Part shown: piece by piece, positions 27,191 to 52,540 of the stretch
Layout of the letters: every line of letters starts with the position of its first letter
How positions within the stretch are numbered: position 1 is the first letter of the stretch
Assembly (NCBI GenBank): GCA_020444515.1
Contig: JAHLKX010000004.1
Coordinates: forward strand, 310,001 to 374,000
Length of the DNA: 64,000 nt
Reading direction: 5' to 3'
Source: Bacteroidota bacterium
GTDB lineage: Bacteria > Bacteroidota > Bacteroidia > Bacteroidales > JAADJA01
Notes under the pieces: generated by a model
The model's database searches: none
Told to the model about the DNA's origin: nothing
What the model saw: the letters and a program-made list of their open reading frames with translations, nothing else
Position numbers and translations under genes: made by a program

Positions 27191-27222
27191 TTGTTTAATA
27201 TATACAAGCAAACGTTAAACAA
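27191..27222 (+). promoter_or_regulatory. inverted-repeat operator TTGTTTAA-N16-TTAAACAA before yceI
   Basis: Two perfect 8-base half-sites separated by 16 bases, ending 18 bases before the yceI ATG. The same half-sites with the same spacing occur before the Lacal_2735 operon (37840-37871), and a decayed version precedes the Lacal_2735 pseudogene. I infer a binding site for a dimeric regulator. Confidence 0.75.
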
Positions 27223-27240
27223 TATATAAAATTAAAAACT

Positions 27241-27780
27241 ATGGAAACAACAACACTAACTAAATGGAAAGCGGATATAGCGCACTCAGAAGTAGAATTT
27301 AAAGCAAAGCATCTGGTTATCTCCACTGTGACGGGGCGTTTCAATGAATTTGATGCAGGTTTGGAATCGGAAGATGACGATCTGGAAAATGCTATGGCCT
27401 GGTTCAAAGCCGAAGTTAACAGCATTTCTACCGGTGTACCTGATCGTGACACCCACTTGAAATCAGCTGATTTTTTTGATGCGGAGAAGTATCCTCATAT
27501 CAAATTTGAGTCAACAAAGTTCACCAAGAGGAGTGAAAATCAATATGAAATGACCGGAAACCTTACCATGAGAGATATCACCCGGGAGGTTGTTTTGAAT
27601 GTGGAATATGGTGGAACAATGGTAGATCCCTGGGGAAATACGAAAGCAGGATTTGAAATCACCGGCAAAATAAATCGTCATGATTTCGGATTAAAATGGA
27701 ATGCCGTCACTGAAGCCGGAGGGCTTGTGGTAGGAGAAGCTATCAAGTTGGCTCTGAACATTCAAATGATGAAAAATTAA
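27241..27780 (+). CDS. YceI family protein
   Basis: 179 residues with the lipocalin-like YceI fold that binds isoprenoid-type lipids: KWKADIAHSEVEFKAKHLVISTVTGRFNEFD, DTHLKSADFFDAEKYPHIKFES, LTMRDITREVVL, AGFEITGKINRHDFGL. There is no signal peptide, so unlike E. coli YceI this version should be cytoplasmic. It is preceded by the inverted-repeat operator and followed by a strong terminator, so it is a single-gene unit. The shared operator suggests control together with the Lacal_2735-SRPBCC-CIA30 operon. Confidence 0.93.
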   Translation: METTTLTKWKADIAHSEVEFKAKHLVISTVTGRFNEFDAGLESEDDDLENAMAWFKAEVNSISTGVPDRDTHLKSADFFDAEKYPHIKFESTKFTKRSENQYEMTGNLTMRDITREVVLNVEYGGTMVDPWGNTKAGFEITGKINRHDFGLKWNAVTEAGGLVVGEAIKLALNIQMMKN

Positions 27781-27808
27781 ATACAATTTAGGGTTTGTAT
27801 TTAACTGT

Positions 27809-27836
27809 GCCCCATCATTTGCGGTGGGGCTTTTTT
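27809..27836 (+). terminator. intrinsic terminator after yceI
   Basis: Stem GCCCCATC/GGTGGGGC (one G-T pair), 6-base loop, six T. Confidence 0.9.
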
Positions 27837-28030
27837 ATTTTGTATCCTAAAGAAAATGGATACACCACCAAACTGCTTATCAATAAGCGGGTTCAAAAAT
27901 GTTATTATCTTCATCCCGAACCATTTACCGTGCCCATAAATGGCCCTAAACAGAGGTCAAATATTTCCACCCCCCATTCCGGATTGGAATTGAGGTATGT
28001 TTCAAAAATGAAAGGTATTTTTTCCCGCTG

Positions 28031-29689
28031 TCAGGAAGTTGGTTCCACATCATTCTGCTTCTGTTTTTGCTTTTTCGCATAATAAAACGAAAGACCAATG
28101 GAAACGACCGCCAGGACTAACAGAGCAATCACCCTGAATGCCAATTCGATGCGCGCCAGGTCAACAATAAAAAGGTAGATGGCAGCTGAGAACATGGTTG
28201 CCAGTGCCATGTAACGATATTTAACATTGTGCAATAACAGGCTAAAAACAAAATATAGCATTGCAGCACCGGCCCATGAAACGGTAATGTATTGATCGGC
28301 TACTGCATGATAAAGGGTAAAGAGGACCATAAAAAAAGCCAGGATCAAATAAAAATTTCGAATGTAATCGGTACGAATGGTCAATCTTTCTTTTTTCCAG
28401 TTCAAAATTCTGGCAGTTGCCAGTGCTACAATCGAAAATGAAACATTCATGCTTGTCATAAGCGGTGAAGTGGACAGGTAAACCATCAATAAAACAACGA
28501 ATAAGAGACTGTTCATCATGACGATGAACCTGCTCCGGAACCAGATGGCCATCGAGACAACCAATAAGCTCTGTATGGCCAGCAGGAAGTAGGCCCGTGG
28601 AAATCCATAAAAACCATAGATCGTAACGCTCAATGTCACGAAACCGAATAAAGCATAGAGCGCAGCAATCATTTTCCGGTGTGTCCTTACCTGGAGAATG
28701 ATGGAATAAACAAGACAATACAGGGCTACTGAACCTGTAAGGGCGACATAGGTATCCTTGAAAAACGCCAGGATAAAAAGGGCCACCACAAAGGCAAAAC
28801 CAATTCCATTAAACAGGATGGTACCGATAATGCCGTTGTCGGTATATTGGGTTTCCCTCTCTGGTATCAGTGCTATGAATGAAAGAATGGCTGCACTGAT
28901 AAATATGTATATAAAACCAGAGTAATGTTCCTTTATGATCACCAATTCGTGTCCCATAAAAGGATTGTTGAACATCCATAATACATTAATCAGATAGACC
29001 AAAAAAACCGCCAGATAAATCAATCGGATCCAACCATATCGATACAATAAGAAAACACTTCCAAGCGCGATGATCGATGCCAGCGTCAACTCAACATGTG
29101 TTTTATCACTGAGAATGGAGCACACGGTAATCAATATGAAGGATAAACCGGCCAGGGTCACATGCTTGATTCGGATCGCTTCAATCATAACAATTACAGG
29201 GACCAGTAGAAGAATAAAAAGCGCCAAATTACTGTGGGGGATAACCGGTTCGGGGGTAAAAAAGTGTAACTTCAGGATCACATAAAAAGCCAGAACATAG
29301 CCATTTAATTGAAAGATCTTTGCCATATAAGGATTGGATTCCTTTAGATAACGGGCCAGAAAAAATATGCCAGAAACGGCCACAATGCCAAAAACAGGTG
29401 CAATGAGTTTGAATCCTTGCAACTGCAAATATTGCACGAAAAATGTAATGCCGAAAAACAAAACGACATTGCCGAGCCAGGCCAGCCCGAATTCACCAAA
29501 ATGCGATTCCAGTCCGGCATCAGCTTTTCCACCAAAATTAAACCTTAATCCGTTGTCCGGCTCCTCCGGATTATCCAATTGCGCATCTGATCTTTCGGGA
29601 GATGATTCCAGTTGGGCAACACGATTCTCCAAAAGCGTTAATCTCTTTAAAAGTTCTTGAAAGCGGTCATTGTCCTGTAGCTGAGCCAT
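28031..29689 (-). CDS. DUF2339-type polytopic membrane protein
   Basis: 552 residues. The N-terminal 60 are soluble with a short coiled coil (LLKRLTLLENRVAQLES), followed by GLESHFGEFGLAWLGNVVLFFGITFFVQY and then a nearly continuous series of about 16 membrane segments. The N-terminal pattern (coiled coil, then 'E..lG..wl...G...l..G..ff..y') fits DUF2339 membrane proteins of unknown function. It lies downstream of the NrfD-type operon on the same strand with a 70-base gap, so co-transcription is possible. Confidence 0.8.
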   Translation of the reverse strand: MAQLQDNDRFQELLKRLTLLENRVAQLESSPERSDAQLDNPEEPDNGLRFNFGGKADAGLESHFGEFGLAWLGNVVLFFGITFFVQYLQLQGFKLIAPVFGIVAVSGIFFLARYLKESNPYMAKIFQLNGYVLAFYVILKLHFFTPEPVIPHSNLALFILLLVPVIVMIEAIRIKHVTLAGLSFILITVCSILSDKTHVELTLASIIALGSVFLLYRYGWIRLIYLAVFLVYLINVLWMFNNPFMGHELVIIKEHYSGFIYIFISAAILSFIALIPERETQYTDNGIIGTILFNGIGFAFVVALFILAFFKDTYVALTGSVALYCLVYSIILQVRTHRKMIAALYALFGFVTLSVTIYGFYGFPRAYFLLAIQSLLVVSMAIWFRSRFIVMMNSLLFVVLLMVYLSTSPLMTSMNVSFSIVALATARILNWKKERLTIRTDYIRNFYLILAFFMVLFTLYHAVADQYITVSWAGAAMLYFVFSLLLHNVKYRYMALATMFSAAIYLFIVDLARIELAFRVIALLVLAVVSIGLSFYYAKKQKQKQNDVEPTS

Positions 29690-29759
29690 AATGGTTATAT
29701 TTTAGTTATCACAAGTCGAAATATCATTCTTTATACCAGGGCCTGGTGATCAAAGGAAA

Positions 29760-30959
29760 TCATGCCGGCTCTGCAGGTACTTTTTTCCAGGGGGGTAAGA
29801 GCCACAGCAGAAAAGCCAGAATAATAAAGGGGATAATGATCCAGGCCATCGACCATAAAAGTCCTTCAGAACCTGCAATTCTGATTTTATAATCGGTGAA
29901 ACCATAAAAACTCTTTGAAAATAATTGCCCTCCGATAACCACATTCCAGCGCATAAAGAAAATCCCGAGCAATACCAGGAGGCTGCTGACAAGATATATT
30001 ACACGCCGTGTAAACTCCCTGGGTTTATAAAACTGCAATATCCCCAGTACTATCAGTGGAATGATGGTTCCTAAAAATATTTGGAAAATAAAAAATGTAA
30101 GAAACAGGGGACCGTGAACCAACAAGGACAATATTTCGAAGGACTCTTCAGCCTCATAGATCCGGTGGATCTGATCCAATCCTTCCAGGGTAAAATCGAG
30201 GATCAGGATGTAAAACAAATATTTGGCAATGGTATCCAGGGCTTTCATATCAATTTTTTGTTTCCTGATATATGAAACTGCCATATAAATGAAAAGTACC
30301 AGGGCAATGCCCGAGACCATGGCAGAGAAGAGAAAAATGACAGGCATCATAACGGTCGACCACCAGGGATTGGCTTTGATCGATCCGAATATAAAACCTA
30401 CATATCCATGCAGTAGAAAAGCAGAGGGGATCCCCACCACGGTGATGAAATATCCAATTTTATCATCCCATTTCACCGTTTTCGGACTGATATCATTCAC
30501 GCCCAGTGTAAGAATCTTATATATCCGGGCTTTAAACCCTTTCTCCTGTCTTGCCCAAATTACCATATCGCGCCGATAATCAAACCAGATTTCCAGTAAT
30601 AGCACGACCATTAAATACCACAGATAAACAAATCCAAAGATCGCCATGGCTGAAGTAGAATGAGGTGTGCTCAATATTTCATATGCTCGAAGCGGATGGC
30701 CTAAATGACTGACCAGCGGCATGGTTGCTACCAGCAAAAATGCCAGTGCGGTGAGCAAAGCCAGTTCATAGGTAGGTTTTAACACCTTTACATTAAAAAC
30801 CCTTTCGAGGGAAGCCAGGATAAAAGCACCAGCAACCAGCCCTGTAATATACGGATACAAAACGATGAGCAAACCCCATTGCAAATCCAGTTCATTGGGA
30901 TAGATAAATCCCTGAACCTGGGATAACATTTCATATAGATATTGGTAATGTTGTTCCAT
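29760..30959 (-). CDS. NrfD/PsrC-type membrane subunit
   Basis: 399 residues with about ten membrane segments. It resembles the NrfD/PsrC quinone-interacting membrane anchor of molybdopterin or cytochrome redox complexes: an N-terminal PYITGLVAGAFILAS, SHLGHPLRAYEIL and WWSTVMMPVIFLFSAMVSG are typical. It should exchange electrons between the quinone pool and the Fe-S protein encoded directly upstream (1-base gap). It is the third gene of a cytochrome-FeS-NrfD operon. Confidence 0.88.
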   Translation of the reverse strand: MEQHYQYLYEMLSQVQGFIYPNELDLQWGLLIVLYPYITGLVAGAFILASLERVFNVKVLKPTYELALLTALAFLLVATMPLVSHLGHPLRAYEILSTPHSTSAMAIFGFVYLWYLMVVLLLEIWFDYRRDMVIWARQEKGFKARIYKILTLGVNDISPKTVKWDDKIGYFITVVGIPSAFLLHGYVGFIFGSIKANPWWSTVMMPVIFLFSAMVSGIALVLFIYMAVSYIRKQKIDMKALDTIAKYLFYILILDFTLEGLDQIHRIYEAEESFEILSLLVHGPLFLTFFIFQIFLGTIIPLIVLGILQFYKPREFTRRVIYLVSSLLVLLGIFFMRWNVVIGGQLFSKSFYGFTDYKIRIAGSEGLLWSMAWIIIPFIILAFLLWLLPPWKKVPAEPA

Positions 30960-30960
30960 A

Positions 30961-31728
30961 TTATCTAACCTCCGCGCTTAGTGCATTATAATATAATTTA
31001 CTTCCTGTATTTAAATGTGGCTTCAGGACCAGGCAATTATGATTTTTCATAAACGAATAAAGTTCACCTTCCTGATCATTCAAATCACCCAGTATCCTGG
31101 CATGGGTGGGGCAAACTTCAACACATGCTGTAGTTTTACCTTTGGATATGCGATGATAACATAGGGTACATTTATCAACCACATTTTTCTCCGGGTGAAT
31201 ATAACGACATCCATAAGGACAGGCCTGAACGCAGTAACGGCAACCTATGCAATAGGATTCATCTACCAGGACCACCCCATCAGGACTATCGTAAGTTGCA
31301 CCTACAGGGCAGGCCTGAACACATGGTGATTTGTGGCAATGGTTGCACATTTTGGGCACAAAAAAAGCTTTAAAAATATCCGCTTCAGGAACCGTTTGCT
31401 TGAATCCGTTAATGCCGCCATTGGGTGATTCAACCTTAACTGATCCGTCATTTTTGATGGTGTATTGCTCAACCCATGTACGAAAATAAAAAGGCTCTTT
31501 GGGGACATCATTTTCCAGTTTACAGGCATTGGCGCATCGGCCGCAACCAATGCATTTTTCAATATCAATACCATATCCCCACCATGGTTTGGTCGGATCT
31601 TCAGGCCTTTCGGTGGCAAAAATGACAGCATTGAAAGGATTAACAATTCCGGTAGCCAACAGCCCCCCGGCGGCAGCAGCAGCTTTGATGAATTTTCTTC
31701 TCGATTGTTTTACTCTGCAATTTCCCAT
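30961..31728 (-). CDS. Tat-exported ferredoxin-type subunit (DmsB/NrfC-like, four 4Fe-4S)
   Basis: 255 residues with a Tat signal (SRRKFIKAAAAAGG, twin Arg 10-11), so it is exported folded. Four cysteine sets for [4Fe-4S] clusters are visible: CIGCGRCANAC, CNHCHKSPCVQACP, CIGCRYCVQACPYGC and CTLCYHRISKGKTTACVEVCP. It acts as the electron wire between the tetraheme cytochrome and the NrfD subunit. Its start overlaps the end of the cytochrome gene by 19 bases. No catalytic molybdopterin or nitrite-reductase subunit is present nearby. Confidence 0.93.
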   Translation of the reverse strand: MGNCRVKQSRRKFIKAAAAAGGLLATGIVNPFNAVIFATERPEDPTKPWWGYGIDIEKCIGCGRCANACKLENDVPKEPFYFRTWVEQYTIKNDGSVKVESPNGGINGFKQTVPEADIFKAFFVPKMCNHCHKSPCVQACPVGATYDSPDGVVLVDESYCIGCRYCVQACPYGCRYIHPEKNVVDKCTLCYHRISKGKTTACVEVCPTHARILGDLNDQEGELYSFMKNHNCLVLKPHLNTGSKLYYNALSAEVR

Positions 31729-32159
31729 GGTAAATGTGGATTATGACATTCAATACATTTTTGATCAGGATTATGATCGGCCAGGTCAACTTGGGCGATC
31801 TTGTCCACTCGGGTTAAATTAGTGGCGTGGCAAAGCCCACAATGTTCCCTTTGATCGGGAATAATGAGCTGTCCAGCCTTAGGATTATCATAGTGTACCA
31901 TTCCCGGGCCATGACAAATTTCGCACGATAAGCCAGCATGCATATCTGATTCCATTTCCAGGGCCTTGTCGTCATGGCACTCAGCACATGCATCCCGTCC
32001 GGCATATTGCAGGGACAAATCCTTATTTTCCGCTACCGAATTGAAACGGTAATGACCCTGCTCACCAAATGATTCAGGGACCAGCAAGTACCGTCCGAGC
32101 AGGAAAAGAAAAATAAAAATAGCAAATAAAGGTATCAGCGTTTTGAGTTGCGGTGGCAT
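31710..32159 (-). CDS. membrane-anchored tetraheme cytochrome c
   Basis: 149 residues with an uncleaved N-terminal hydrophobic anchor (LIPLFAIFIFLFLLGRYLL) and four CxxCH heme sites at residues 58, 79, 107 and 135 (CAECH, CEICH, CGLCH, CIECH). The domain should lie in the periplasm. As first gene of the operon it could receive or deliver electrons for the Fe-S/NrfD pair. It is short compared with NrfH or NapC, and the spacing of the heme sites does not identify a specific family. Confidence 0.9.
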   Translation of the reverse strand: MPPQLKTLIPLFAIFIFLFLLGRYLLVPESFGEQGHYRFNSVAENKDLSLQYAGRDACAECHDDKALEMESDMHAGLSCEICHGPGMVHYDNPKAGQLIIPDQREHCGLCHATNLTRVDKIAQVDLADHNPDQKCIECHNPHLPWEIAE

Positions 32160-32438
32160 ATTATTTTGGATTAATTGATTCGTAAATATAAATCTAGATA
32201 TGTTAATTTGTCAAATAATTGGGTATGATATAAAACAGTTTTTCCCTATCAATATAAATTCTAAATAGCAGCAATCCTCTAGCATTCCAGGGGCAGAGAA
32301 CCATTTTCAGCAGATCATTTTTCAGATTTAAACCTGTTCATTGTAACCTGGCATGTTTCCAATCGTCACATTATCTGAAGAATGATAGGTGACTGCACCA
32401 TTCTTTTAACGAATCGAATCATTTTAAACCATCATACT

Positions 32439-34865
32439 ATGCTGACCAAGCTATTTAACTACAGCATCCGAGCATTGAAAAAACAAAAGACCTATGTCCT
32501 CATCAATATTCTGGGCCTGGCCATTGGCCTTGCCTGTAGTCTCATTATCATATTATTTATAAACTACGAGCTTAGCTTTGATCAATTCAATGTAAATAAA
32601 GACAGGTTGTACAGGGTAATTCTGAATGGTAAAATAGGAGGACAGGAAGTTACTGTAACCTCAACAGCTTCACCTATCGGGCCCGCCATGCATGATGAAT
32701 TTCCGGAAGTTGAGAATTTTCTCAGGATGAACAGCTGGGGAGAGACCATCATCCGGCATAATGATGACCGGTTTATCGAAGATTTTTTTATGGAAGCCGA
32801 TTCATCGTTTTTCGAATTTTTCTCAATTCCCCTGCTACAAGGAAATATAAAAACAGTACTCAATGAACCACATACAGCGGTATTATCGGAAAGTACGGCG
32901 AATAAGATCTTTGGCGAGGTAAACCCCGTGAATCAACTGCTTAGCATTGGGAATGATACTACCTATTATAAAATAACCGGTATTTATGCCGATATTCCTG
33001 AAACCTCCCATTTCAAAGCAAATGCGATCGGATCATTCATGACAAACCGACGGGCTAATGATAATCAGTGGCTCGCGAATAGTTTTAGCACCTATGTGCT
33101 ATTATATCCAAATACTGATCCCGGCACTGTCGATGACCGGTTTGCTTCCCTGATCGAAAAACATGTTGGTCCCGAAATTGTCAGGTTCATTGGTATCAGC
33201 ATCCAGGAGTTTTTAGCGCAAGGTAACAAATACAACTACTTTCTGCAGAAGCTCACCGACATCCATCTTGATCCCAGCATCGAACAGGATTTCAAACCAG
33301 CCAATGATCCGAAATATCTATGGATATTTGGTAGTATTGCCGTTCTGATCATCATCATTGCTTCCATTAACTTTATGAACCTGTCGACTGCACAGGCAGG
33401 TAAAAGGGCCAAAGAAGTCGGCATCAAAAAAGTAAGTGGATCCACAAGGGGTCTTTTGATAGCGCAGTTTCTGATTGAAACCATTATTTTATCCCTGCTT
33501 GCCCTCTTGCTTACCATTTTTATAACCCAAATGTCACTTCCCTATTTTAACAAGCTCCTTGGGATTCACTTAAGCATGGGTTATTTCAGTAACTGGTTTA
33601 CTATCCCTGCCCTGATCATCGGGGCCACTATCATTGGACTGATTGCCGGAAGTTATCCTGCCTTTTATCTTTCGGCATTCAATCCCTACATGGTGTTAAA
33701 GGGCATGCGGGTTGGTAACCGTAAAGGTTTTAAACTGAGAAGTGTTTTGGTCGTCTTACAATTTTCTATTTCCATTATTCTGATCGTTGGCACGCTGATC
33801 ATGTTCAGGCAAATTAATTTTATGCTGAATAAGGATCTTGGTTTTGATAAAGAGCATGTTCTTGTTTTGCGCGAAGCCAGTACGCTGGGTAAAAAAGTCA
33901 ATAGTTTTAAAGATGAAATAAATCAAATACCAGGGGTATTGAGTGTGGCTGCTTCCACTGCTGTTCCGGGACATAATAATAACAACAATGGCTACATGGT
34001 AAAAGGCAGGCCCGAAGATTCCTTTTTGCTACAGACCAATTGGGTTGATTATGACTACCTGGAAACCTATGGTTTGGAATTGGCTTCCGGTCGCTTTTTT
34101 GATAAGAAATTTGCTACTGACAAGGAAGCTTGTGTGGTCAACGAAAACGCCGTTCATCATTATTCTTTTGACGATCCGTTTTCAGTTCGTTTCCTGAATC
34201 CACCGGATGACGAAAATGAAGAAATGAAATATATGCCAATCATTGGCGTTGTTCACGACTTTCATTTTGAGTCATTAAAAAGCGACATTGCGCCGCACAT
34301 TATGCGATTTAAAAATGAAGATAACAACTGGGGGTATATCAGCATCAAACTTTCTCCAAATGCCGGCTCTGAAACTATAGAAGCTATTGAACGCACATGG
34401 GAATCTTTTGCAAATAATGATCCCATGCAATACTTTTTTATGGATAAGGATTTTGATCGTTTGTATAAAGAAGAGCAACAGAACGGACAACTGGCAATAG
34501 TTTTTTCGATACTTGCCATTTTTATTGCATCATTGGGATTATATGGTCTTACTTCCTTTACCGTTCAGCAAAGAACAAAAGAGATTGGCGTACGAAAAAC
34601 CTTTGGCGCTTCCTTAAACAATTTATGGTTCCTGGTTTCCAAAGAGATCATGATCCTGGTGCTGATCTCAACTGCTATTGCATGGCCACTCATTTACTGG
34701 GTAGCGGATAACTGGCTCCAAAACTATCATTACCGAATACATTTGAGGGTAATTGACTTTCTGACCGGATTCATCATTGCCCTGATTATTGCACTGGCCA
34801 CAACCAGCTACAGAACCATTAAAACGGCCCTGGTAAATCCTTCTGAATCGCTGAGGTATGAATGA
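32439..34865 (+). CDS. ABC transporter permease (MacB/FtsX type)
   Basis: About 808 residues from ATG 32439 (MLTKLFNYSIRALKKQKTYVLINILGLAIGLACS); the ATG at 32382 adds an unlikely leader. Two MacB-type periplasmic domains alternate with two FtsX-like membrane units: first TM near residue 22-42, FtsX unit 1 about 294-420 (RAKEVGIKKVSGSTRG), second periplasmic domain about 440-680, FtsX unit 2 about 683-800 (RTKEIGVRKTFGAS). Double-FtsX permeases of this kind are frequent in Bacteroidota and usually pair with a separate ATPase. None is adjacent here, so the partner must be encoded elsewhere. The substrate cannot be read. Confidence 0.93.
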   Translation: MLTKLFNYSIRALKKQKTYVLINILGLAIGLACSLIIILFINYELSFDQFNVNKDRLYRVILNGKIGGQEVTVTSTASPIGPAMHDEFPEVENFLRMNSWGETIIRHNDDRFIEDFFMEADSSFFEFFSIPLLQGNIKTVLNEPHTAVLSESTANKIFGEVNPVNQLLSIGNDTTYYKITGIYADIPETSHFKANAIGSFMTNRRANDNQWLANSFSTYVLLYPNTDPGTVDDRFASLIEKHVGPEIVRFIGISIQEFLAQGNKYNYFLQKLTDIHLDPSIEQDFKPANDPKYLWIFGSIAVLIIIIASINFMNLSTAQAGKRAKEVGIKKVSGSTRGLLIAQFLIETIILSLLALLLTIFITQMSLPYFNKLLGIHLSMGYFSNWFTIPALIIGATIIGLIAGSYPAFYLSAFNPYMVLKGMRVGNRKGFKLRSVLVVLQFSISIILIVGTLIMFRQINFMLNKDLGFDKEHVLVLREASTLGKKVNSFKDEINQIPGVLSVAASTAVPGHNNNNNGYMVKGRPEDSFLLQTNWVDYDYLETYGLELASGRFFDKKFATDKEACVVNENAVHHYSFDDPFSVRFLNPPDDENEEMKYMPIIGVVHDFHFESLKSDIAPHIMRFKNEDNNWGYISIKLSPNAGSETIEAIERTWESFANNDPMQYFFMDKDFDRLYKEEQQNGQLAIVFSILAIFIASLGLYGLTSFTVQQRTKEIGVRKTFGASLNNLWFLVSKEIMILVLISTAIAWPLIYWVADNWLQNYHYRIHLRVIDFLTGFIIALIIALATTSYRTIKTALVNPSESLRYE

Positions 34866-34953
34866 TTATTTTAATATAGGAACAAGGATGATGCGAGTTT
34901 AATTGATTTAAGGATAGTTTAATAATTCCAATTCATCAATTCTTTTTCTGATC

Positions 34954-36453
34954 TTACTCGCTTTTCACAAACTTCAAAAGAATGTCATTTCCATCATTAG
35001 CTGAAATACAGAGGAAATACAACCCTTGAGTGAAAGAAGAAATATCGATTCGAATTTGAACGTCAGTCTTTGACAATGTTTGATAAAAGATTGATTGACC
35101 TTTGCTATCCAAAATCGTTAAACGGTTTGCTCTCATATCAGTCACATCAAGAATGATCTCTTTCTGTGCCGGATTCGGATACAACCGTTGTTGCCAATCG
35201 AAATTTGTCTCTATACCCGTACATGGATCAATCAATACTTCAAATATGGCGGACGTACCCTCACACTCAGGTGAACTCTCCGTTACCACAACTGTTCCTT
35301 CACCTGCAGCACCCCATTCAACAACGATTTCAGATGTTCCGGCTCCACTGATAATTTCACCGCCACTAACCTCCCAGTCATAGGTATTACCTTCGTTATA
35401 AAGCGTTGAATAGGTTTCCGCATGACCTGCACAAACCGTTTCAGGACCCTGAACTTCAGGGGTTGGTTTCCCGAAAACACTAATGTAGTCGGTCATGGTA
35501 ACGGTATTTGAACCTGATCCATTGGATACTTCAAGGGTCACATCATATTGACCTTCATTGGTGTAGGCGACCACGGGATTTTGATCGGTAGATGTAGCCG
35601 GATCACCTCCCTCGAAAGTCCATAACCATGAATCAGGATTTCCCATTGACTCATCTGTAAAGTTGATGATTTCGTCTTCGCAAATTTCTGTTGCATTTGC
35701 TGTAAAGCCTGCTGTAAGCATAACCGGGGGTCGAACAGCAATGGTTCCGGTCCATATATCAACAGAACCAACGAGTGTATTGGCTCCGGTTGTTAAATCC
35801 ACGGTCCACAGTTCATTATCTAACTCAAACACATTATAAGAAACCATAAACATTGTTTGTGTTTCAGGATCAAAGTCAAGTCCATGGTGTGGTAAACCTG
35901 AGACAGCCATATTAAAATCACCGATGTACGTTGCTTGTCCGTTGGTTTTATCAATGGAATAGAACTTTCTTACCAGGAAAATGGCAAACATCTGGCCGGT
36001 ATCATCAAAAGCAATACCTGTTACCCCATCCTCAATCATCCCGGAACCAATGATAGTGGTTGCGCCTGTTTCGAGATCAAGGGTATAAAATGTACTTGAA
36101 TTTCCGTCAGTACTGCATACATACATCGTCCCGTCAGTCGGATCATTTGCCATTCCGGTCCAGAACTCCGAACCCGATGGCGTTATGGAAGTAATAAATG
36201 TTGCAGTAGCATCGGTGGTATCCAGTATATACAAACCATTATCGGCACCACTAATGGCATAAAGTACACCATCACTGCTAAAATCAGAAGCTCCTATCTG
36301 GTTTTGTGTTGTGCCGATAAGTATTGCATTGGATGGATTTGTCAGATCCCGTTTGTAAAAATCACCGAAAAAATTGGGAAGAAAGCCAGTTTGACCGAAA
36401 ACCGAAAAGGAGAGCAAGATCGAGACAAATAAAGTAGTATAGGCCTTTTTCAT
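34954..36453 (-). CDS. T9SS-secreted PKD-domain protein with propeller-like N-terminal half
   Basis: 499 residues; signal peptide ends at SFSVFGQ. Residues 20-240 contain repeated short 'YxIDxxTGxAtxIG' blades (LYILDTTDATATFI, FYTLDLETGATTIIG, FYSIDKTNGQATYIG, LWTVDLTTGANTLVG), suggesting a beta-propeller-like fold. A PKD domain follows (TANATEICEDEIINFTDES...VAYTNEGQYDVTLEVSN), then an Ig-like region, and a type A sorting domain (LYPNPAQKEIILDV...GLYFLCI). Probably secreted or surface attached; binding partner unknown. Confidence 0.88.
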   Translation of the reverse strand: MKKAYTTLFVSILLSFSVFGQTGFLPNFFGDFYKRDLTNPSNAILIGTTQNQIGASDFSSDGVLYAISGADNGLYILDTTDATATFITSITPSGSEFWTGMANDPTDGTMYVCSTDGNSSTFYTLDLETGATTIIGSGMIEDGVTGIAFDDTGQMFAIFLVRKFYSIDKTNGQATYIGDFNMAVSGLPHHGLDFDPETQTMFMVSYNVFELDNELWTVDLTTGANTLVGSVDIWTGTIAVRPPVMLTAGFTANATEICEDEIINFTDESMGNPDSWLWTFEGGDPATSTDQNPVVAYTNEGQYDVTLEVSNGSGSNTVTMTDYISVFGKPTPEVQGPETVCAGHAETYSTLYNEGNTYDWEVSGGEIISGAGTSEIVVEWGAAGEGTVVVTESSPECEGTSAIFEVLIDPCTGIETNFDWQQRLYPNPAQKEIILDVTDMRANRLTILDSKGQSIFYQTLSKTDVQIRIDISSFTQGLYFLCISANDGNDILLKFVKSE

Positions 36454-36592
36454 GATAGTATTTTAGGATATTGAAGATTTTATATGACAAAGATAAGAAA
36501 TGTCATAGTGATCCAAAAGGCTATCATTTCCTAGGTAGAAAAGAGATAAAGATGAAGAAACTATACTTGAGGCCTGGGTTCCATTGATTGAT

Positions 36593-37138
36593 TTATTTAT
36601 AAAGTTTAACCCAATCGATATCCACGGTAAACTCACCAAATTGATAATCTGCTATCAACATACCAAATTGAGCGATATCCTTTGAGTTCAGTTCCGGCAT
36701 ACCACTTAGGGTTCTGCCCCTGAAAGTAGGTTCGAATTCTGTGAAGGGAATTTTATATTCCTTCCAAACATTTTTTCCAGTTTGAATTTTTGCCTGATAG
36801 GCATAGCCATCAAAGTTGCGATTGGTCCTGAATCGAATGCTATAAATGTTTCCATCACCCTTCACACGAACTGAAACTCCTTCAAACTGCGTGTCATCAT
36901 CAATTTGGATGACCGATCTGATGGATGCAAAACCACCGTTGTTATCAGGGGATAATGTTCCACTAAATGTAATGGTGCCATCATCATTAAATACCATTTG
37001 ACTATCTGAGCGTCCGCCCATCACGTCATCGTTAACGATGTACCATTTACCCGACGATTCTTCAGATTGAAAGTCAAATACAATGTGATCTGCGCTGACC
37101 ATGAGTGTAGTAATTAAGATAATAATGAATGTTTTCAT
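36593..37138 (-). CDS. CIA30 family protein
   Basis: 181 residues with an N-terminal hydrophobic stretch that may be a signal peptide (MKTFIIILITTLMVSA). The body fits the CIA30 domain (named for a mitochondrial complex I assembly factor; also seen in bacterial NAD-binding proteins): WYIVNDDVMGGRSDSQMVF, FSGTLSPDNNGGFASIRSV, WKEYKIPFTEFEPTFRGR, IAQFGMLIADYQFGEFTVDIDWVKLY. It is the third gene of a compact operon, one base after the SRPBCC gene. Role unknown; the operon context suggests stress or light response. Confidence 0.88.
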   Translation of the reverse strand: MKTFIIILITTLMVSADHIVFDFQSEESSGKWYIVNDDVMGGRSDSQMVFNDDGTITFSGTLSPDNNGGFASIRSVIQIDDDTQFEGVSVRVKGDGNIYSIRFRTNRNFDGYAYQAKIQTGKNVWKEYKIPFTEFEPTFRGRTLSGMPELNSKDIAQFGMLIADYQFGEFTVDIDWVKLYK

Positions 37139-37139
37139 A

Positions 37140-37646
37140 CTAAATTGCTTGCATTTTTACTTCGGACGGCTTTGAAACGGAACGGTAATCACCAAATCTT
37201 TGCTTGATGGCCTTTGAGCGGAACGAAAAAATTTCTTTGAGTTTGTTTTTAATGAGTAAAGCATTGGCTATGCTTCCCAGAAATCCGAAAGGCGGTTTAT
37301 AACTTACAATATCTTTCATCAAAACCCCATTTTCAATGGGCTCGATAAAATGCTCATGATGCCACATAGCATAGGGTCCGACACGTTGCTCATCCACAAA
37401 ATACTGCCGGTCTTTCACATGGGTAATTTCAGTTACCCATGTAGTTTTAATCCCAAATACCGGTTTGACAATGTAACTGATGATCATCCCCGGGTACATC
37501 TTTTCAGGTAGTCCTTTTGAGGTAATATCAAATCCCATGTATTCCGGTGTTATTTTTTTGAGATTGGCTGGCGATGAAATAAAATCCCATACTTCCTCTA
37601 TGGAAGCATTGACTTTTAGTTCTTGTTTAAATTGATAAAATCCCAT
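37140..37646 (-). CDS. SRPBCC family protein
   Basis: 168 residues with the START-like/SRPBCC lipid-binding fold: FKQELKVNASIEEVWDFISSPANLKKITPEYMGFDI, PGMIISYIVKPVFGIKTTWVTEITHV, YFVDEQRVGPYAMWHHEHFIEP and GVLMKDIVSYKPPFG are the usual pattern. In many Bacteroidota such proteins lie next to photolyase-type genes (general recollection, not testable here). It begins 2 bases after the Lacal_2735 gene and is followed by CIA30 after 1 base. Confidence 0.92.
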   Translation of the reverse strand: MGFYQFKQELKVNASIEEVWDFISSPANLKKITPEYMGFDITSKGLPEKMYPGMIISYIVKPVFGIKTTWVTEITHVKDRQYFVDEQRVGPYAMWHHEHFIEPIENGVLMKDIVSYKPPFGFLGSIANALLIKNKLKEIFSFRSKAIKQRFGDYRSVSKPSEVKMQAI

Positions 37647-37648
37647 GA

Positions 37649-37822
37649 CTAAGCGGCTGTTTCTAATGCTTCAATCTCTTTTAAAACACGATCGGCTTCA
37701 GCTGACTTTTCGTCACTGGCCTTCCGATTGACGGCTGATAATCGATATGCTTCCTCCAGCAAACGCTGGTATTTCTTTTGAAGAGTTTTCTTTTTCGAGT
37801 TTTTTCCAAATAATCCAAACAT
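37649..37822 (-). CDS. Lacal_2735-type small protein
   Basis: 57 residues, starting MFGLFGKNSKKK and continuing with a highly charged helical hairpin (YQRLLEEAYRLSAVNRKASDE, AEADRVLKEIEALE). This is the pattern of the Lacal_2735/DUF6435 family of small Bacteroidota proteins of unknown function. It is the first gene of the operon with SRPBCC and CIA30. The inverted-repeat operator ends 17 bases before its start. A frameshifted paralogue, including its decayed operator, lies at 52350-52540. Confidence 0.88.
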   Translation of the reverse strand: MFGLFGKNSKKKTLQKKYQRLLEEAYRLSAVNRKASDEKSAEADRVLKEIEALETAA

Positions 37823-37839
37823 GATTCTTTAATTTTATT

Positions 37840-37871
37840 TTGTTTAATATTTAATGTCTATAGTTAAACAA
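37840..37871 (-). promoter_or_regulatory. inverted-repeat operator TTGTTTAA-N16-TTAAACAA before the Lacal_2735 operon
   Basis: Perfect half-sites and 16-base spacer, identical in geometry to the site before yceI. Read in the gene direction both sites also share TATA and ACA in the left half of the spacer, and both lie 17-18 bases before the ATG, so the element may overlap the promoter itself. Confidence 0.75.
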
Positions 37872-38175: not shown

Positions 38176-38619
38176 ATGCCGCGTCCAAAAAACGAGCGAA
38201 AAGTTCAAAGCCCGCCTCTTTTCAGTCAGTTCAAACCGGTTGGCGTATCCGCCAGAATGCTCAATCAGATTTTATTGTCACTGGATGAGTATGAAGCCTT
38301 TCGTCTGGCTGATAACATGGGCTTATCCCATGCTGAAGCTGCTGAAGAAATGGAAATCTCAAGATCGACTTTTACCCGCCTGATTGAAGCAGCGAGAAAA
38401 AAGATAGCAGCCTTAATCGTCAACGGGAACCTGTTATTCATTGAGGGCGGTAATGTTCATTTCCGGAAGAATATTATTCGATGCCTAAGTTGTGAACATA
38501 TGTTCGATACAAAAATAGATTCATCAATTACCGATTGTCCGGTATGTCATTCAACCAACTTGCTCAATCTTGCCGGTGGGTTCGGACATGGTAAATGCTG
38601 TTCAAACAGATACAGATAA
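38176..38619 (+). CDS. DUF134 (UPF0251) family DNA-binding protein with zinc-ribbon tail
   Basis: 147 residues. MPRPKN at the start, FKPVGVSARMLNQILLSLDEYEAFRLAD and GLSHAEAAEEMEISRSTFTRLIEAARKKIAALIVNG match the DUF134 helix-turn-helix family, thought to be transcription regulators. The C-terminal part adds a zinc ribbon (CLSCEHMF...DCPVCHS) and a GHGKCC end. In other genomes DUF134 genes stand beside NifX-like and DUF5320 genes, as here, so it probably regulates this cluster. First gene of the run. Confidence 0.92.
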   Translation: MPRPKNERKVQSPPLFSQFKPVGVSARMLNQILLSLDEYEAFRLADNMGLSHAEAAEEMEISRSTFTRLIEAARKKIAALIVNGNLLFIEGGNVHFRKNIIRCLSCEHMFDTKIDSSITDCPVCHSTNLLNLAGGFGHGKCCSNRYR

Positions 38620-38632
38620 CATTAAAAAAGAA

Positions 38633-38640
38633 AGGAGGTG
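38633..38640 (+). promoter_or_regulatory. strong Shine-Dalgarno before the DUF5320 gene
   Basis: AGGAGGTG, three bases before ATG 38644. Such strong sites are uncommon in this phylum. The GTG at 38638 is part of this site and should not be taken as the start. Confidence 0.7.
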
Positions 38641-38643
38641 AAA

Positions 38644-38946
38644 ATGCCAAAAGGTAATGGAACAGGGCCAATGGGAAAGGGACCAAAAACAGGAAGAGGA
38701 TTAGGATTTTGCACTGGAAATGACATGGCTGGATTTCAGTATTCTCCACCAGGTTTTGGAAGAAGATTGGGCACAAATCGCGGAAGGAGATGGGGAAGAG
38801 GATCTGGTTTCGGTTTTGGTCGTTTCAGGGGTGAAACGCATCCTCAGGTTTCTACAGAAACATTGCTTGAAAACGAAGCAAGGATTCTGAGAGATCAGTT
38901 AGCGTCAGTCGAAAAACAACTCTCTGAACTTAAAAAAAAAGACTGA
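38644..38946 (+). CDS. DUF5320 family protein
   Basis: 100 residues. The N-terminal MPKGNGTGPMGKGPKTGRGLGFC, rich in Gly and Pro, is diagnostic for DUF5320, and is followed by a Gly/Arg/Phe-rich middle (FGRRLGTNRGRRWGRGSGFGFG) and a C-terminal coiled coil (LLENEARILRDQLASVEKQLSELKKK). Proteins of this type accompany NifX/MinD-like genes in anaerobes; their function is unknown. The gene has its own terminator, so it can be expressed separately with the DUF134 gene. Confidence 0.9.
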   Translation: MPKGNGTGPMGKGPKTGRGLGFCTGNDMAGFQYSPPGFGRRLGTNRGRRWGRGSGFGFGRFRGETHPQVSTETLLENEARILRDQLASVEKQLSELKKKD

Positions 38947-38953
38947 CTAAAAT

Positions 38954-38994
38954 CAAGCAGGCTTCACTTTATTGAGCCTGCTTGTTCTTTTTTA
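38954..38994 (+). terminator. intrinsic terminator after DUF5320
   Basis: Stem CAAGCAGGCT/AGCCTGCTTG (10 bp), 11-base loop, T-rich tail. It separates the first two genes of the cluster from the following ones. Confidence 0.85.
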
Positions 38995-39013
38995 AAACAA
39001 AAAAATAACAATA

Positions 39014-39238
39014 ATGAATACAACTGGAAAAGGATCAGGCAGGGGCTATGGAAGCAGTTCCGGCAATGATGGCGGAAAGGGTCGCAATAAGGGCGGGGCA
39101 TTTGGACCGGGAGGCTTTTGCATTTGCACGAAATGTGGCGAAAAAGTCCCTCATCAAAAAGGTGTAAAATGCACCACACTAAAATGCCCGAAATGCAACC
39201 ATGTCATGATACGGGAAGAGTTACTAAAGAAAAAATAA
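39014..39238 (+). CDS. small zinc-ribbon/rubredoxin-like protein
   Basis: 74 residues: a Gly/Ser/Lys-rich start (GKGSGRGYGSSSGNDGGKGRNKGG), then a metal-binding domain with CICTKCGEKVPH, KCTTLKCPKCNHVM. The two Cys pairs fit a zinc ribbon, or less likely an iron site. The low-complexity start resembles the neighbouring DUF5320 protein. Found among Fe-S/NifX-type genes; function unknown. Confidence 0.82.
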   Translation: MNTTGKGSGRGYGSSSGNDGGKGRNKGGAFGPGGFCICTKCGEKVPHQKGVKCTTLKCPKCNHVMIREELLKKK

Positions 39239-39257
39239 ATCAAAGACATTAGAAGAT

Positions 39258-39596
39258 ATGAAAAAATTATTTGCCGTTCCCACGATTGGGAAGCAGCTTT
39301 GCGCCCACTTTGGCCACTGCGAAGCATTTGCCCTGATTGAAACAGACCATCAGAAAATTGTAAACGTTGAATACCATACCCCGCCGGTTCATCAACCTGG
39401 CACCTATCCCAGGTTTTTAGCTGATAAAGGGGTCAGTACCATCATTTCGGGAGGAATGGGTATCAAAGCCCAGGAAATATTTGCCCAGAACAATATCGAA
39501 GTTTTTACGGGAATTGATTCTGAAAATCCTGAGGATCTTGTAATACAATATTTAAATGGTCAGCTTGAAAGTCGAGAAAACCTCTGCGATCATTAG
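39258..39596 (+). CDS. NifX/NifB-type dinitrogenase cofactor domain protein (copy 1)
   Basis: 112 residues of the 'dinitrogenase iron-molybdenum cofactor biosynthesis' fold, a small domain that carries Fe-S or metal clusters. Marks: VPTIGKQLCAHFGHCEAFALIE, the ADKGVSTIISGGMGIKAQEIF core and the C-terminal YLNGQLESRENLCDH. The His-Phe-Gly-His-Cys stretch and the Cys-Asp-His end could bind metal. It shares its tail with the protein at 46958-47293. There are no nitrogenase structural genes here, so a nitrogenase role is unlikely. Followed after 11 bases by the first MinD-type ATPase. Confidence 0.92.
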   Translation: MKKLFAVPTIGKQLCAHFGHCEAFALIETDHQKIVNVEYHTPPVHQPGTYPRFLADKGVSTIISGGMGIKAQEIFAQNNIEVFTGIDSENPEDLVIQYLNGQLESRENLCDH

Positions 39597-39607
39597 TCAT
39601 TTATTGT

Positions 39608-40471
39608 ATGAAAATTGCCATTGCAAGCGGTAAAGGGGGAACCGGGAAAACTACATTATCCAGCAATCTGGCTAGTTATTTGGCTGAACATAGAGAAGTC
39701 GTTTTAACAGATATGGATGTTGAGGAACCGAATTCCGGATTATTTATCCAGGCAGATCTTAAGCACGAAGAAGATAAATTCAAGATGGTGCCTCAATGGG
39801 TTGAAGATAAGTGCACTTTGTGCGGGATTTGTCAAAAAGTATGTAACTTCCATGCAGTGATCCAACTGGGAACGATGATCATGGTTTTACCTGAACTTTG
39901 CCATGGTTGTTATGCCTGTTCCGAATTATGCCCTGAGTCAGCACTACCCATGATTCCCAAAAAAATGGGAAAACTGATTGAATTCAGAAGCGATAATTTG
40001 CATTTTATTGAAAGCAGACTGGATATTGGTGAAGAACAGGCAGTGCCACTGATCAGGCAAACCAGGAATTATATCGATAAAACATTTCCTGATGAGGTCA
40101 TTAAGATCTACGATGCGCCTCCCGGCACTTCATGCCCTGTCATCGAAGTAACCAAAGATGCAGATTTTGTCATCCTGATCACCGAACCCACTCCGTTCGG
40201 ATTCCATGACCTGAAACTTGCAGTGGAAACCATGAGGAAGCTGGATAAATCATTTGGTGTGGTGATCAATCGCGACGGAATAGGCAACAACGATGTAATG
40301 GATTATAGCGAAGCTGAAAAGATCCCTTTGCTCGCTAAAATACCCAACGACCGGATCATTGCTGAGTTCTATTCAAAAGGGCAACTCATTTACAAAGAAG
40401 TCCCGGCTTTTCGGCATGAACTTGACGGGATCATCGCCTACATCAAAACCTTAAAAGACCTCAAACAATAA
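39608..40471 (+). CDS. MinD-superfamily P-loop ATPase with inserted ferredoxin domain (copy 1)
   Basis: 287 residues of the Mrp/NBP35/CooC-like group (COG1149 type). The deviant Walker A is GKGGTGKTT (Lys 9, Lys 14), with switch DMDVEEPN and DAPPGTSCPVIE. Inserted at about 65-112 is a two-cluster ferredoxin with Cys 69/72/75/79 and 98/101/104/108. Relatives load or insert Fe-S or metal clusters using ATP. The stop overlaps the next gene's start by one base (TAATG), implying that both ATPases are made together. Confidence 0.94.
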   Translation: MKIAIASGKGGTGKTTLSSNLASYLAEHREVVLTDMDVEEPNSGLFIQADLKHEEDKFKMVPQWVEDKCTLCGICQKVCNFHAVIQLGTMIMVLPELCHGCYACSELCPESALPMIPKKMGKLIEFRSDNLHFIESRLDIGEEQAVPLIRQTRNYIDKTFPDEVIKIYDAPPGTSCPVIEVTKDADFVILITEPTPFGFHDLKLAVETMRKLDKSFGVVINRDGIGNNDVMDYSEAEKIPLLAKIPNDRIIAEFYSKGQLIYKEVPAFRHELDGIIAYIKTLKDLKQ

Positions 40472-41352
40472 TGAAGGAAATCGTTGTGATATCAGGAAAA
40501 GGGGGGACTGGTAAAACATCTCTGACAGCATCATTTGCTTACCTCGGAGGAGAGGATGTTATCGTTGCCGATTGTGATGTGGATGCAGCTGATATGCACC
40601 TGTTGCTTGAACCCGATTTTGAGGAAAAGGAAGATTTTTACAGCGGGGAACTGGCCTACATAAAACAGGATCAATGCATTCGCTGCGGAAAGTGTGCAAA
40701 GGTTTGTCGTTATGATGCCATTTTAACGATTCATAATGTTTTTACAGTTGATTCGCTAAGCTGCGAGGGTTGTGGTTATTGTGCCCGAATTTGCCCTACA
40801 AACGCAATCATCAACAGAAAGCCCATAGCCGGCACATGGTACATTTCCAATATAAAAACCGGCAGTATCATGGTTCATGCAAAGTTGGGTATCGGAGCTG
40901 ATAATTCGGGGAAATTGGTGGCCAAAGTAAAGGCCGAGGCAAAGGAGATTGCTGAAGATGAATTTAAAGATTATGTCATTGTTGATGGTTCTCCCGGAAT
41001 TGGATGCCCGGTAGTTTCTTCCCTTTCAGGAGCCAGTTTTGTTGTGATCGTGACAGAGCCTTCGGTCTCGGGTTTACATGATTTAAAAAGAGTGTATGAA
41101 CTGATTCAGAAATTTAAAATTAAGGCCGGTTGCCTAATCAATAAATCGGACATTAATCCAAAGTTAACCGAAGAGATAGAAACATTCCTTCGAATTGAAA
41201 ATATCGAACATATAGCAAATTTACCCTATGACGAAGATTTTACGAAAGCCATGACCAATGGACAAACCATTGTAGAATACTCCAATGGCCATTTAAAGGA
41301 AATGATAGATAAAAGCTGGAATAAAATAAAACAATTGGTAACCAATAATTAA
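40471..41352 (+). CDS. MinD-superfamily P-loop ATPase with inserted ferredoxin domain (copy 2)
   Basis: 293 residues, paralogue of the preceding protein. GKGGTGKTS (Lys 10, Lys 15), DCDVDAAD, DGSPGIGCPVV, and eight cysteines at exactly the same residue numbers (69, 72, 75, 79, 98, 101, 104, 108). The two probably form a heterodimer, since such ATPases act as dimers sandwiching ATP (inference). A NifX-like gene follows after 5 bases. Confidence 0.94.
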   Translation: MKEIVVISGKGGTGKTSLTASFAYLGGEDVIVADCDVDAADMHLLLEPDFEEKEDFYSGELAYIKQDQCIRCGKCAKVCRYDAILTIHNVFTVDSLSCEGCGYCARICPTNAIINRKPIAGTWYISNIKTGSIMVHAKLGIGADNSGKLVAKVKAEAKEIAEDEFKDYVIVDGSPGIGCPVVSSLSGASFVVIVTEPSVSGLHDLKRVYELIQKFKIKAGCLINKSDINPKLTEEIETFLRIENIEHIANLPYDEDFTKAMTNGQTIVEYSNGHLKEMIDKSWNKIKQLVTNN

Positions 41353-41357
41353 TCGAA

Positions 41358-42483: not shown

Positions 42484-42563
42484 AAGGAATTTCTTACAAG
42501 CTTTGGGTTCAACAGCTACCAATCTTCTATCGAACAAAAATAGAATTTATATCAATCAAATTA

Positions 42564-52116: not shown

Positions 52117-52301
52117 GGATAGCCTTTATTTGTATACAAGATGGCCTTGATCTATCCAACGGAATGAATTCTGGATGAATAATTATGTTAGAAGTTAAAA
52201 GTTGAAGATTGGATAAAACCGATTACACACCTTGCTAAGGAAAGGAACTGAAGGATATCAGCTGATAAATCGACCTGTGTCAATCTGCCATGTCAGCGTC
52301 A
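52117..52301. other. intergenic segment with a Bacteroidota-type repeat-like stretch
   Basis: Bases 52261-52301 (CTGTGTCAATCTG...GTCAGCGTCATCAGCG) resemble the 'CTGTG..AATCTG..CGTCATC' type of short intergenic repeat found again at 55349-55397. No gene seen. Confidence 0.4.
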
Positions 52302-52540
52302 TCAGCGTCCCATCGTAAAAACCATCTCCCCTTCCCCGATCAAGTCCGAAAAATACACGATTGGCTTCAGCTGACTTTTCGTCATAGGCCTTACGATTTA
52401 TGGTTGATAATCGATACGCTTCCCGGAACAGGCCCTGGTAGTTCCTTTCCAGAGATTTCTTTTTTTGATTTTTGTACGAATAATCCAAACATGACAAATA
52501 GATTTTTTGCTTAATGTTTAATTTTCATAATTAAAAGAAG
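52302..52540 (-). pseudogene. mosaic pseudogene: dead Lacal_2735 copy joined to the tail of a GH92 gene
   Basis: From ATG 52492 the minus strand begins MFGLF like the intact 57-residue gene at 37649-37822. An extra A in a seven-A run shifts the frame, after which the family sequence continues in the next frame (LERNYQGLFREAYRLSTINRKAYDEKSAEANRV). After about 52352 homology stops and the strand continues with a copy of the last ~17 codons of the GH92 gene (FSDLIGEGEMVFTMG, stop at 52302; compare YSELIGGGEMVFWMK). The leader also matches that of the intact gene, including a decayed operator (52507-52538). Confidence 0.75.
52507..52538 (-). promoter_or_regulatory. decayed copy of the TTGTTTAA-N16-TTAAACAA operator
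   Basis: TTGCTTAA-N16-TTAAAAGA: same spacing as the two intact sites, with one mismatch in one half-site and two in the other, in the leader of the dead Lacal_2735 copy. Confidence 0.6.

Follow-up and report, generated by a model that had tools for sequence, protein, structure and literature searches.

The window analyzed here is a 64-kb stretch (64,000 nucleotides) of a Bacteroidota draft genome (GenBank assembly GCA_020444515.1, contig JAHLKX010000004.1, positions 310,001 to 374,000), and our subject is a palindromic element that occurs in it twice without mismatch, once ahead of yceI and once ahead of a probable operon of Lacal_2735, SRPBCC and CIA30 genes. We argue that these two sites very probably serve as operators in a light regulon that spans the genome and has a regulator of the CarH/LitR type as its reader. 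A pattern scan of the window for TTGTTTAA-N16-TTAAACAA (0 mismatches) places operator 1 at 27191-27222, ending 18 bases before the ATG of yceI (27241, forward strand), and operator 2 at 37840-37871, ending 17 bases before the ATG of Lacal_2735 (37822, reverse strand). A first-pass annotation, made from the sequence alone, had given the same positions and distances, and it was also right in placing a decayed copy of the element before a dead Lacal_2735 gene. The features are:

27191..27222, + strand: operator 1, perfect TTGTTTAA-N16-TTAAACAA (pattern scan)
27241..27780, + strand: yceI, YceI-like domain PF04264, probable target gene (family search, E 9e-47)
36593..37138, - strand: CIA30-domain protein, PF08547, gene 3 of the probable operon (E 3.1e-43)
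37140..37646, - strand: SRPBCC-type gene, PF03364 polyketide cyclase/lipid transport (E 1.5e-5, just over cut-off)
37649..37822, - strand: Lacal_2735 family protein, 57 amino acids, gene 1 of the probable operon (NF033487, E 9.4e-22, over cut-off)
37840..37871, - strand: operator 2, perfect, upstream of the Lacal_2735-SRPBCC-CIA30 genes (pattern scan)
52300..52494 (limits approximate), - strand: Lacal_2735 copy, frameshifted and truncated, behind the decayed operator (reading of open reading frames, ORFs)
52507..52538, - strand: decayed operator, N16, 3 mismatches (pattern scan)

Two details to which the annotation had pointed are not supported as functional. The letters TATA and ACA shared by the two spacers are offset by one base between operators 1 and 2 and are not common among other sites, and the distance of 17-18 bases to the ATG is no rule, as the sites of this family end anywhere from 0 to well over 100 bases before starts. 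Both the shared letters and the fixed distance are incidental.

The site family and the genes behind it

The host genome is a 5.0-Mb draft, in which the window lies on C11, and the same pattern reversed served as control. Perfect N16 sites number six in this genome and zero in the control, with 0.01 to 0.05 expected from composition only; in the other 147 genomes of our sample the counts are 39 and 3. The annotation's statement that the sites are far beyond chance is therefore borne out, and the check that it proposed, a search for the motif at random positions, found that perfect sites are not frequent.

The spacing of the two half-sites is as restricted as their sequence. When exact half-sites were sought with spacers of 6-30 bases in 41 genomes, 36 places were found, 22 of them N16 (counted from the list). 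In a set of 80 loci encoding MerR-B12 proteins (1.41 Mb in total, from named genomes), N16 sites with 0, 1 and 2 mismatches number 11, 29 and 49, and N17 sites 1, 10 and 19, against 0-1, 0-3 and 0-17 for any other spacer from 4 to 33. It should be noted that these loci were chosen for merR, so that the closeness of sites to merR is partly by design. The dyad consists of inverted half-sites TGTTTAA and TTAAACA, 24-25 base pairs (bp) from center to center, with N16-17 between the 8-mers. Compared position by position over 84 sites, neither half is better conserved than the other, as expected for a symmetric reader.

The six perfect sites of this genome precede yceI; Lacal_2735-SRPBCC-CIA30; a carotenoid run; folE (GTP cyclohydrolase I); a fasciclin gene, where a second site with one mismatch follows 38 bp on; and a gene for a small secreted protein without family. 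The carotenoid run comprises crtI (over the NCBIfam cut-off), a phytoene/squalene-synthase-like gene (below cut-offs), idi, a crtZ-like gene (no NCBIfam match) and a gene with a lycopene-cyclase domain. Sites with one mismatch precede MerR2 (a MerR gene with a B12-binding_2 domain, on C6), a second fasciclin gene and an SDR gene. Others lie at the divergent pair geranylgeranyl reductase-MenG and HMG-CoA reductase (followed by mevalonate-type ORFs, by eye), in the stretch between MerR1 (a MerR-B12 gene, on C1) and an extracytoplasmic function (ECF) sigma gene, 148 bp from a gene for an outer-membrane-type protein, and at a divergent secreted-protein pair on C13 (by eye). An N17 site with one mismatch stands 11 bp before the ATG of a ferritin gene, and the gene after it encodes a photolyase; near another photolyase-type gene (C3, PF04244) there is no site. 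Sites with two mismatches occur directly upstream of three neighboring genes (MerR1, sigma and a large secreted one), and the remaining ones, inside coding DNA, are taken for chance. The candidate regulon of the first-pass annotation is thus supported by the same sites before carotenoid, isoprenoid, pterin (folE) and ferritin-photolyase genes, and these gene families agree with the light, isoprenoid or oxidative theme that it had suggested.

Both targets of the window can be followed into other genomes. Among 17 genomes of the genus (own included), yceI is found in four (E ≤ 1e-20) and the SRPBCC gene in three (E ≤ 1e-15). The yceI ortholog of genome G006 (76% identical) has a one-mismatch N16 site 11 bp before its ATG, and the Lacal_2735-SRPBCC-CIA30 genes of G014 have one 15 bp before the Lacal_2735 start. 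The Lacal_2735 and SRPBCC copies of G014 (L184, C25) carry in-frame stops, either through decay or as an assembly error. In G009 the SRPBCC gene adjoins a sigma-merR locus with several sites, which links the window's operon to the regulator locus. SRPBCC homologues (46-52% identical) in three genomes (G109, G136 and G105) of another family, which we label f29 and which may be Flavobacteriaceae, each have a perfect site, at distances of 9, 9 and 21 bp upstream.

Fasciclin genes stand behind sites in seven f29 loci that were tested. In one f29 genome (G140; L207, C1:462300-465400) a rhodopsin gene (PF01036) is separated from a gene for beta-carotene 15,15'-dioxygenase (PF15461) by a perfect operator (site 1545-1576), which suggests that a rhodopsin pump may be under the same switch there. 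At a locus of a same-genus genome (L130), SOUL haem-binding and fasciclin genes diverge from perfect sites at 1596-1627 and 1642-1673, 46 bp apart.

Some further genes of the window were noted by eye from the ORF list. Adjoining operator 2 is a run of small genes (38176-41687), with iron-sulfur Mrp-like ATPases and dinitrogenase-cofactor-like proteins, followed by a Crp/Fnr-type gene (41788-42537). At 29760-32159 are ORFs for an NrfD-like membrane protein, a 4Fe-4S protein and a cytochrome-type protein.

Overlap of the sites with promoters

The Bacteroidetes -7 box has the consensus TAnnTTTG, and this box often overlaps the site before sigma genes. Over 137 oriented N16 sites, the box starts at -5 in 18, at +5 in 16 and at +16 in 11, compared with 5.3, 1.1 and 0.16 expected from shuffles that keep the half-sites. 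The three offsets are separated by steps of 10 and 11 bp, about one helical turn each. At +5, a TTG lies 18-21 bases upstream of the box in 11 of 16 cases (8 of 16 at exactly 19). Identical flanks were counted once in the start-distance and -7 box counts and in the comparison of the genus with f29 given below; the comparison of three sigma groups used N16 sites only.

Two other arrangements are seen at sigma loci. In 15 of them, mainly Cytophagales-type by title, two sites lie 61-66 bp apart, and at 11 loci 0-2 bases separate the end of a site from the sigma ATG. A repressor that blocks access to promoters would be expected to sit in such places. A general helical phasing of tandem sites was considered as well and found to be unsupported, the spacings being 21, 35-49, 59, 62-65, 79, 89, 114 and 120.

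The -7 box is found at 12 of 30 perfect sites in f29, versus 1 of 14 before non-sigma genes in the window's genus (Fisher p 0.035), a difference that is only suggestive. This count took in genes of at least 70 amino acids, so that the window's Lacal_2735 site (57 amino acids) is outside the 14; by eye, that site has no -7 box. Nothing clear in the way of a promoter motif beyond the palindrome emerged at target genes of the window's genus. It may be that transcription of these targets depends on the ECF sigma factor, in which case CarH, sigma and target would form a feed-forward loop.

The reader of the sites

The co-occurrence of sites with candidate regulators was tabulated over 148 genomes, with MerR called present at E ≤ 1e-20 and sigma at E ≤ 1e-30 (site, MerR and sigma counts are taken to refer to one and the same set, from their equal counts). 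All 18 genomes with a perfect site carry MerR, which is present in 32 of the 148. Perfect sites occur in 6 of 15 genomes with both MerR and sigma, in 12 of 17 with MerR and without sigma, in none of the 4 with sigma and without MerR, and in none of the 112 with neither (uncorrected for relatedness). Relaxing the sigma threshold to E ≤ 1e-25 gives 72 genomes, most of the added ones at 35-41% identity and from other classes, and at either threshold the 116 MerR-less genomes have no perfect site. Within the window's class the counts are 18 of 30 with MerR and 0 of 7 without (p 0.005 for the 0 of 7, kinship ignored). In family f29, MerR is found in 14 of 14 genomes, sigma in 0 of 14 (E ≤ 1e-25) and perfect sites in 12 of 14; at the four f29 merR loci that were read, merR adjoins a crtI-type gene (51% identical in the one compared), with a site before one or both. 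From the 148-genome table and f29 together, the sites follow MerR rather than sigma.

The host genome encodes two MerR proteins of this kind:

genome C1:228903-229784: MerR1, MerR plus B12-binding_2; the ECF sigma gene adjoins
genome C6:79345-80241: MerR2, MerR plus B12-binding_2

The two are 45% identical. Each has an N-terminal MerR-type DNA-binding domain (PF13411, E 1.5e-14 and 1.2e-15, respectively). The C-terminal half of CarH, a four-helix bundle followed by a Rossmann B12-binding domain, is recognized in both through B12-binding_2 (PF02607, over cut-off) and in MerR1 also through the modeled fold. The best PDB sequence matches of MerR1 are 3whp (E 1.2e-15), whose title says no more than probable regulator, and 5c8d (E 1.4e-15), titled CarH; the two are one aligned sequence, that of Thermus thermophilus CarH. 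An AlphaFold model, made for MerR1 only, has a pLDDT of 89.6 and was built from an alignment of 30 homologues (alignment A2, 30 of the 36 rows first chosen; L056, L061, L066, L105, L112 and L128 were left out). Its top fold match is 5c8e, CarH with adenosylcobalamin and DNA (E 1.3e-15), and it matches CarH cobalamin-domain chains with a TMt of about 0.8. The Wx9EH motif that caps the adenosyl group is present in both proteins, as is the cobalt-ligand His. ExHxxG reads EYHEIG in MerR1 and QWHEMG in MerR2, where His and Gly are kept and Glu is replaced by Gln. The annotation had named a MerR-type dimer as the natural reader; two such genes do exist elsewhere in the genome, with sites of one and two mismatches before them, and the reader is probably CarH-like rather than a plain metal- or drug-responsive MerR dimer.

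The alternative that survives best is that these MerR proteins read the sites and sense no light, being either B12-independent, like CarA or class II LitR, or responsive to another signal, with a partner such as the ECF sigma factor carrying the light or redox signal. CarA and class II LitR are described as B12-independent relatives, MerR2 has the Gln in ExHxxG, the cobalt-ligand His is replaced by Gln in 7 of 89 homologues, and the nearest NCBIfam model of the ECF sigma factor is sigma_PG0214 (below cut-off). Against this, the ligand His is kept in 82 of the 89 and the W, E and H of Wx9EH in 89, 85 and 85, a cobalamin adenosyltransferase is encoded in the genome, and the targets include photolyase and carotenoid genes. 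We consider this alternative unlikely. The seven homologues with Gln for His (L106, L118, L119 and L123-L126) are all Saprospiraceae by title, and no intergenic N16 or N17 site (≤2 mismatches) is listed at their loci; could they be natural B12-blind variants?

It could also be supposed that the palindrome represents the -35 and -10 elements recognized by the ECF sigma factor that is encoded beside MerR1, so that the regulon is driven by sigma and the dyad is accidental. A spacer of N16-17 is usual for ECF promoters, and both N16 and N17 are in use here. Sigma genes are found at 53 of the 80 merR loci, 49 of them with a site (≤2 mismatches) before a sigma-sized ORF, and 11 of the 27 loci without sigma have an intergenic site. 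The sigma-less merR loci were tried as an argument against sigma, and the argument failed: a sigma ortholog (48-55% identical) is encoded elsewhere in 11 of 12 such genomes. What speaks against a sigma promoter is that 12 of 14 f29 genomes have MerR and sites without sigma, that the four sigma-only genomes have no perfect site, that the halves are not asymmetric, that an ordinary -7 box often overlaps the site before sigma genes, and that the sites ending 0-2 bases before the sigma ATG at 11 loci are too close to be that gene's promoter. We therefore rejected it as very improbable, given its failure on sigma co-occurrence, on asymmetry of the halves and on room for a start point before the ATG. 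At L144 and L147-L152, relatives of the ECF sigma gene have, by eye, SDR ORFs, GAF-like ORFs and small ORFs resembling pterin aldolase as neighbors, echoing the folE target.

Another regulator, for example the TetR-family protein encoded divergently from crtI, might read the sites instead, as its gene shares the crtI intergenic region and operator and a TetR-like gene (PF17931) stands behind a site in G077; the absence of perfect sites from all 116 merR-less genomes, and the shorter dyads that TetR dimers usually bind, make this still harder to credit. The TetR-family gene itself (L019:9216-9791, + strand) has an EF-hand match (PF00036, E 1.8e-7) that is odd for TetR. Chance occurrence of AT-rich palindromes, to which a window of 60% AT and weak matches as common as in the control might point, is next to impossible given the excess of perfect sites here and in the other 147 genomes, a fixed spacing with other spacings at background, and sites kept before several orthologs.

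A light regulon under a CarH/LitR-type regulator has to be weighed against a number of observations that count against it. Sites with up to three mismatches show no excess genome-wide (138 versus 148 in the control), nor do N17 sites with two mismatches in this genome (9 versus 9); because of the former, weak matches without context are untrustworthy. The annotation's expectation that the spacing is conserved before orthologous genes held for yceI in G006, for Lacal_2735-SRPBCC-CIA30 in G014 and for the SRPBCC genes of the three f29 genomes, and did not hold for yceI in G009 (71% identical), with a three-mismatch site, or for the yceI homologue of G005 (45% identical), with no site upstream. 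Perfect sites are absent from 14 of the 32 MerR genomes, and perfect N16 sites are present in 6 of 16 same-genus genomes, many of which are incomplete. Twelve of the 32 f29 sites read by eye precede genes without an evident light link. On the promoter side, 13 of 14 perfect sites before non-sigma genes in the window's genus lack a -7 box at the three positions, and at two of those positions fewer boxes have the upstream TTG, namely 3 of 18 at -5 (within 18-20 bases) and 4 of 11 at +16 (at 19-20 bases). As for the proteins, PF02310 is weak in MerR1 (0.0064, below cut-off) and not listed for MerR2, and the best family match, the NCBIfam CarH equivalog NF052513, scores 91.5 and 88.2 bits against a cut-off of 400; being so far below it, the proteins are called CarH-like here and not the NCBIfam CarH equivalog. 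Finally, the operators of CarH itself are three or four tandem 11-bp direct repeats (nnnnTnnACAn), and here the TnnACA pair is inverted.

Relation to known light switches and meaning

The CarH of Thermus thermophilus and Bacillus megaterium (class I LitR) shares with the proteins described here a MerR winged helix joined to an adenosylcobalamin domain, Wx9EH and, in the case of MerR1, ExHxxG. It is also the best sequence and fold match of MerR1, its operators overlap promoters, and the TnnACA element is common to both. CarH is reported to recognize nnnnTnnACAn in direct repeats, with an unusual plasticity toward operators and a flexible domain linker (PMC9304148, PMC8156234). Because TTAAACA contains TnnACA, the CarH element recurs here in two inverted copies that are separated by 18-19 bp; the operator would thus have another geometry than that known for CarH, an inverted repeat and not direct repeats. 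Unlike CarH, many scattered targets are seen here, mostly outside the crt cluster.

Paired inverted sites are also found for the class II LitR proteins PplR1 and PmlR2 of Pseudomonas, with light-inducible folE, photolyase and other genes (PMC9758184). The Pseudomonas LitR sequence is given as T(G/A)TACA-N12-TGTA(C/T)A, with one site over the -35 and one between the start point and the ATG (PMC9758184). However, 12 bp separate the elements there versus 18-19 here, class II proteins are believed not to be B12 binders, and a LOV protein acts together with PmlR2 (PMC9758184). The crt operator of Myxococcus xanthus, read by CarA and CarH, is about 55 bp long, with inverted repeats over a primary-sigma promoter and cooperative dimers (PMC8156234, PMC9304148), and is comparable to the paired sites of the 15 sigma loci (61-66 bp apart); a single crt operator is described there, whereas here the ECF sigma gene itself carries operators. 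Among Bacteroidetes, crt genes of Chryseobacterium lacus rise in light (PMC7064467), and the authors of that 2020 paper report that neither car nor lit genes were found in the strain and that the mechanism is unknown.

No earlier description of the operator or regulon was seen among the matches listed for open-licence PMC articles (most subscription papers lie outside that collection), and the motif strings matched, among those listed, unrelated papers only. PMC11796333 contains no mention of Bacteroid-, Flavobacter-, Cytophag- or operator.

The assignment to a CarH/LitR-type regulator draws on what was computed, namely the site family, its spacing and neighbors, the co-occurrence with MerR rather than sigma, the overlap with the promoter box at sigma genes, and the resemblance of the proteins to CarH in sequence, motifs and fold. 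What is carried over from the CarH family is B12 binding, binding in the dark, release in light and the direction of regulation. The regulator, encoded in two copies, would combine a winged-helix DNA-binding domain of the MerR kind with a domain that binds adenosylcobalamin. Loaded with B12, the oligomer would occupy pairs of inverted half-sites in the dark; these overlap promoters and start points, and the genes would thus be repressed. In light, the cobalt-carbon bond would be broken and the oligomer would fall apart and release the DNA, so that the carotenoid, isoprenoid, pterin, ferritin-photolyase, fasciclin, YceI, Lacal_2735-SRPBCC-CIA30 and ECF sigma genes would be switched on.

More tentatively, much of the Bacteroidota might possess one dark-repressed, B12-gated light regulon with an operator grammar of its own: inverted TnnACA half-sites 24-25 bp apart, placed in steps of roughly one turn (-5, +5, +16) relative to the -7 box, and occurring singly or in pairs about 63 bp apart. 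Besides carotenoid and photolyase genes, such a regulon might also gate membrane and lipid genes (YceI, SRPBCC, CIA30, Lacal_2735, SOUL and fasciclins) and, in at least one f29 genome, the rhodopsin-blh pair. Where an ECF sigma factor is present, CarH might repress both the sigma gene and the sigma targets, a coherent feed-forward loop.

The reading of the sites as operators of a CarH-type repressor would explain how many bacteria of the group switch on their light defenses. For light-induced carotenoids, the mechanism of which was called unknown in PMC7064467, it would supply a candidate photoreceptor together with a concrete operator and a list of genes, and it would offer another operator geometry for a photoreceptor family that is used in optogenetics (PMC9614035). 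The little-understood families YceI, Lacal_2735, SRPBCC, CIA30, fasciclin and SOUL would be assigned to a light program.

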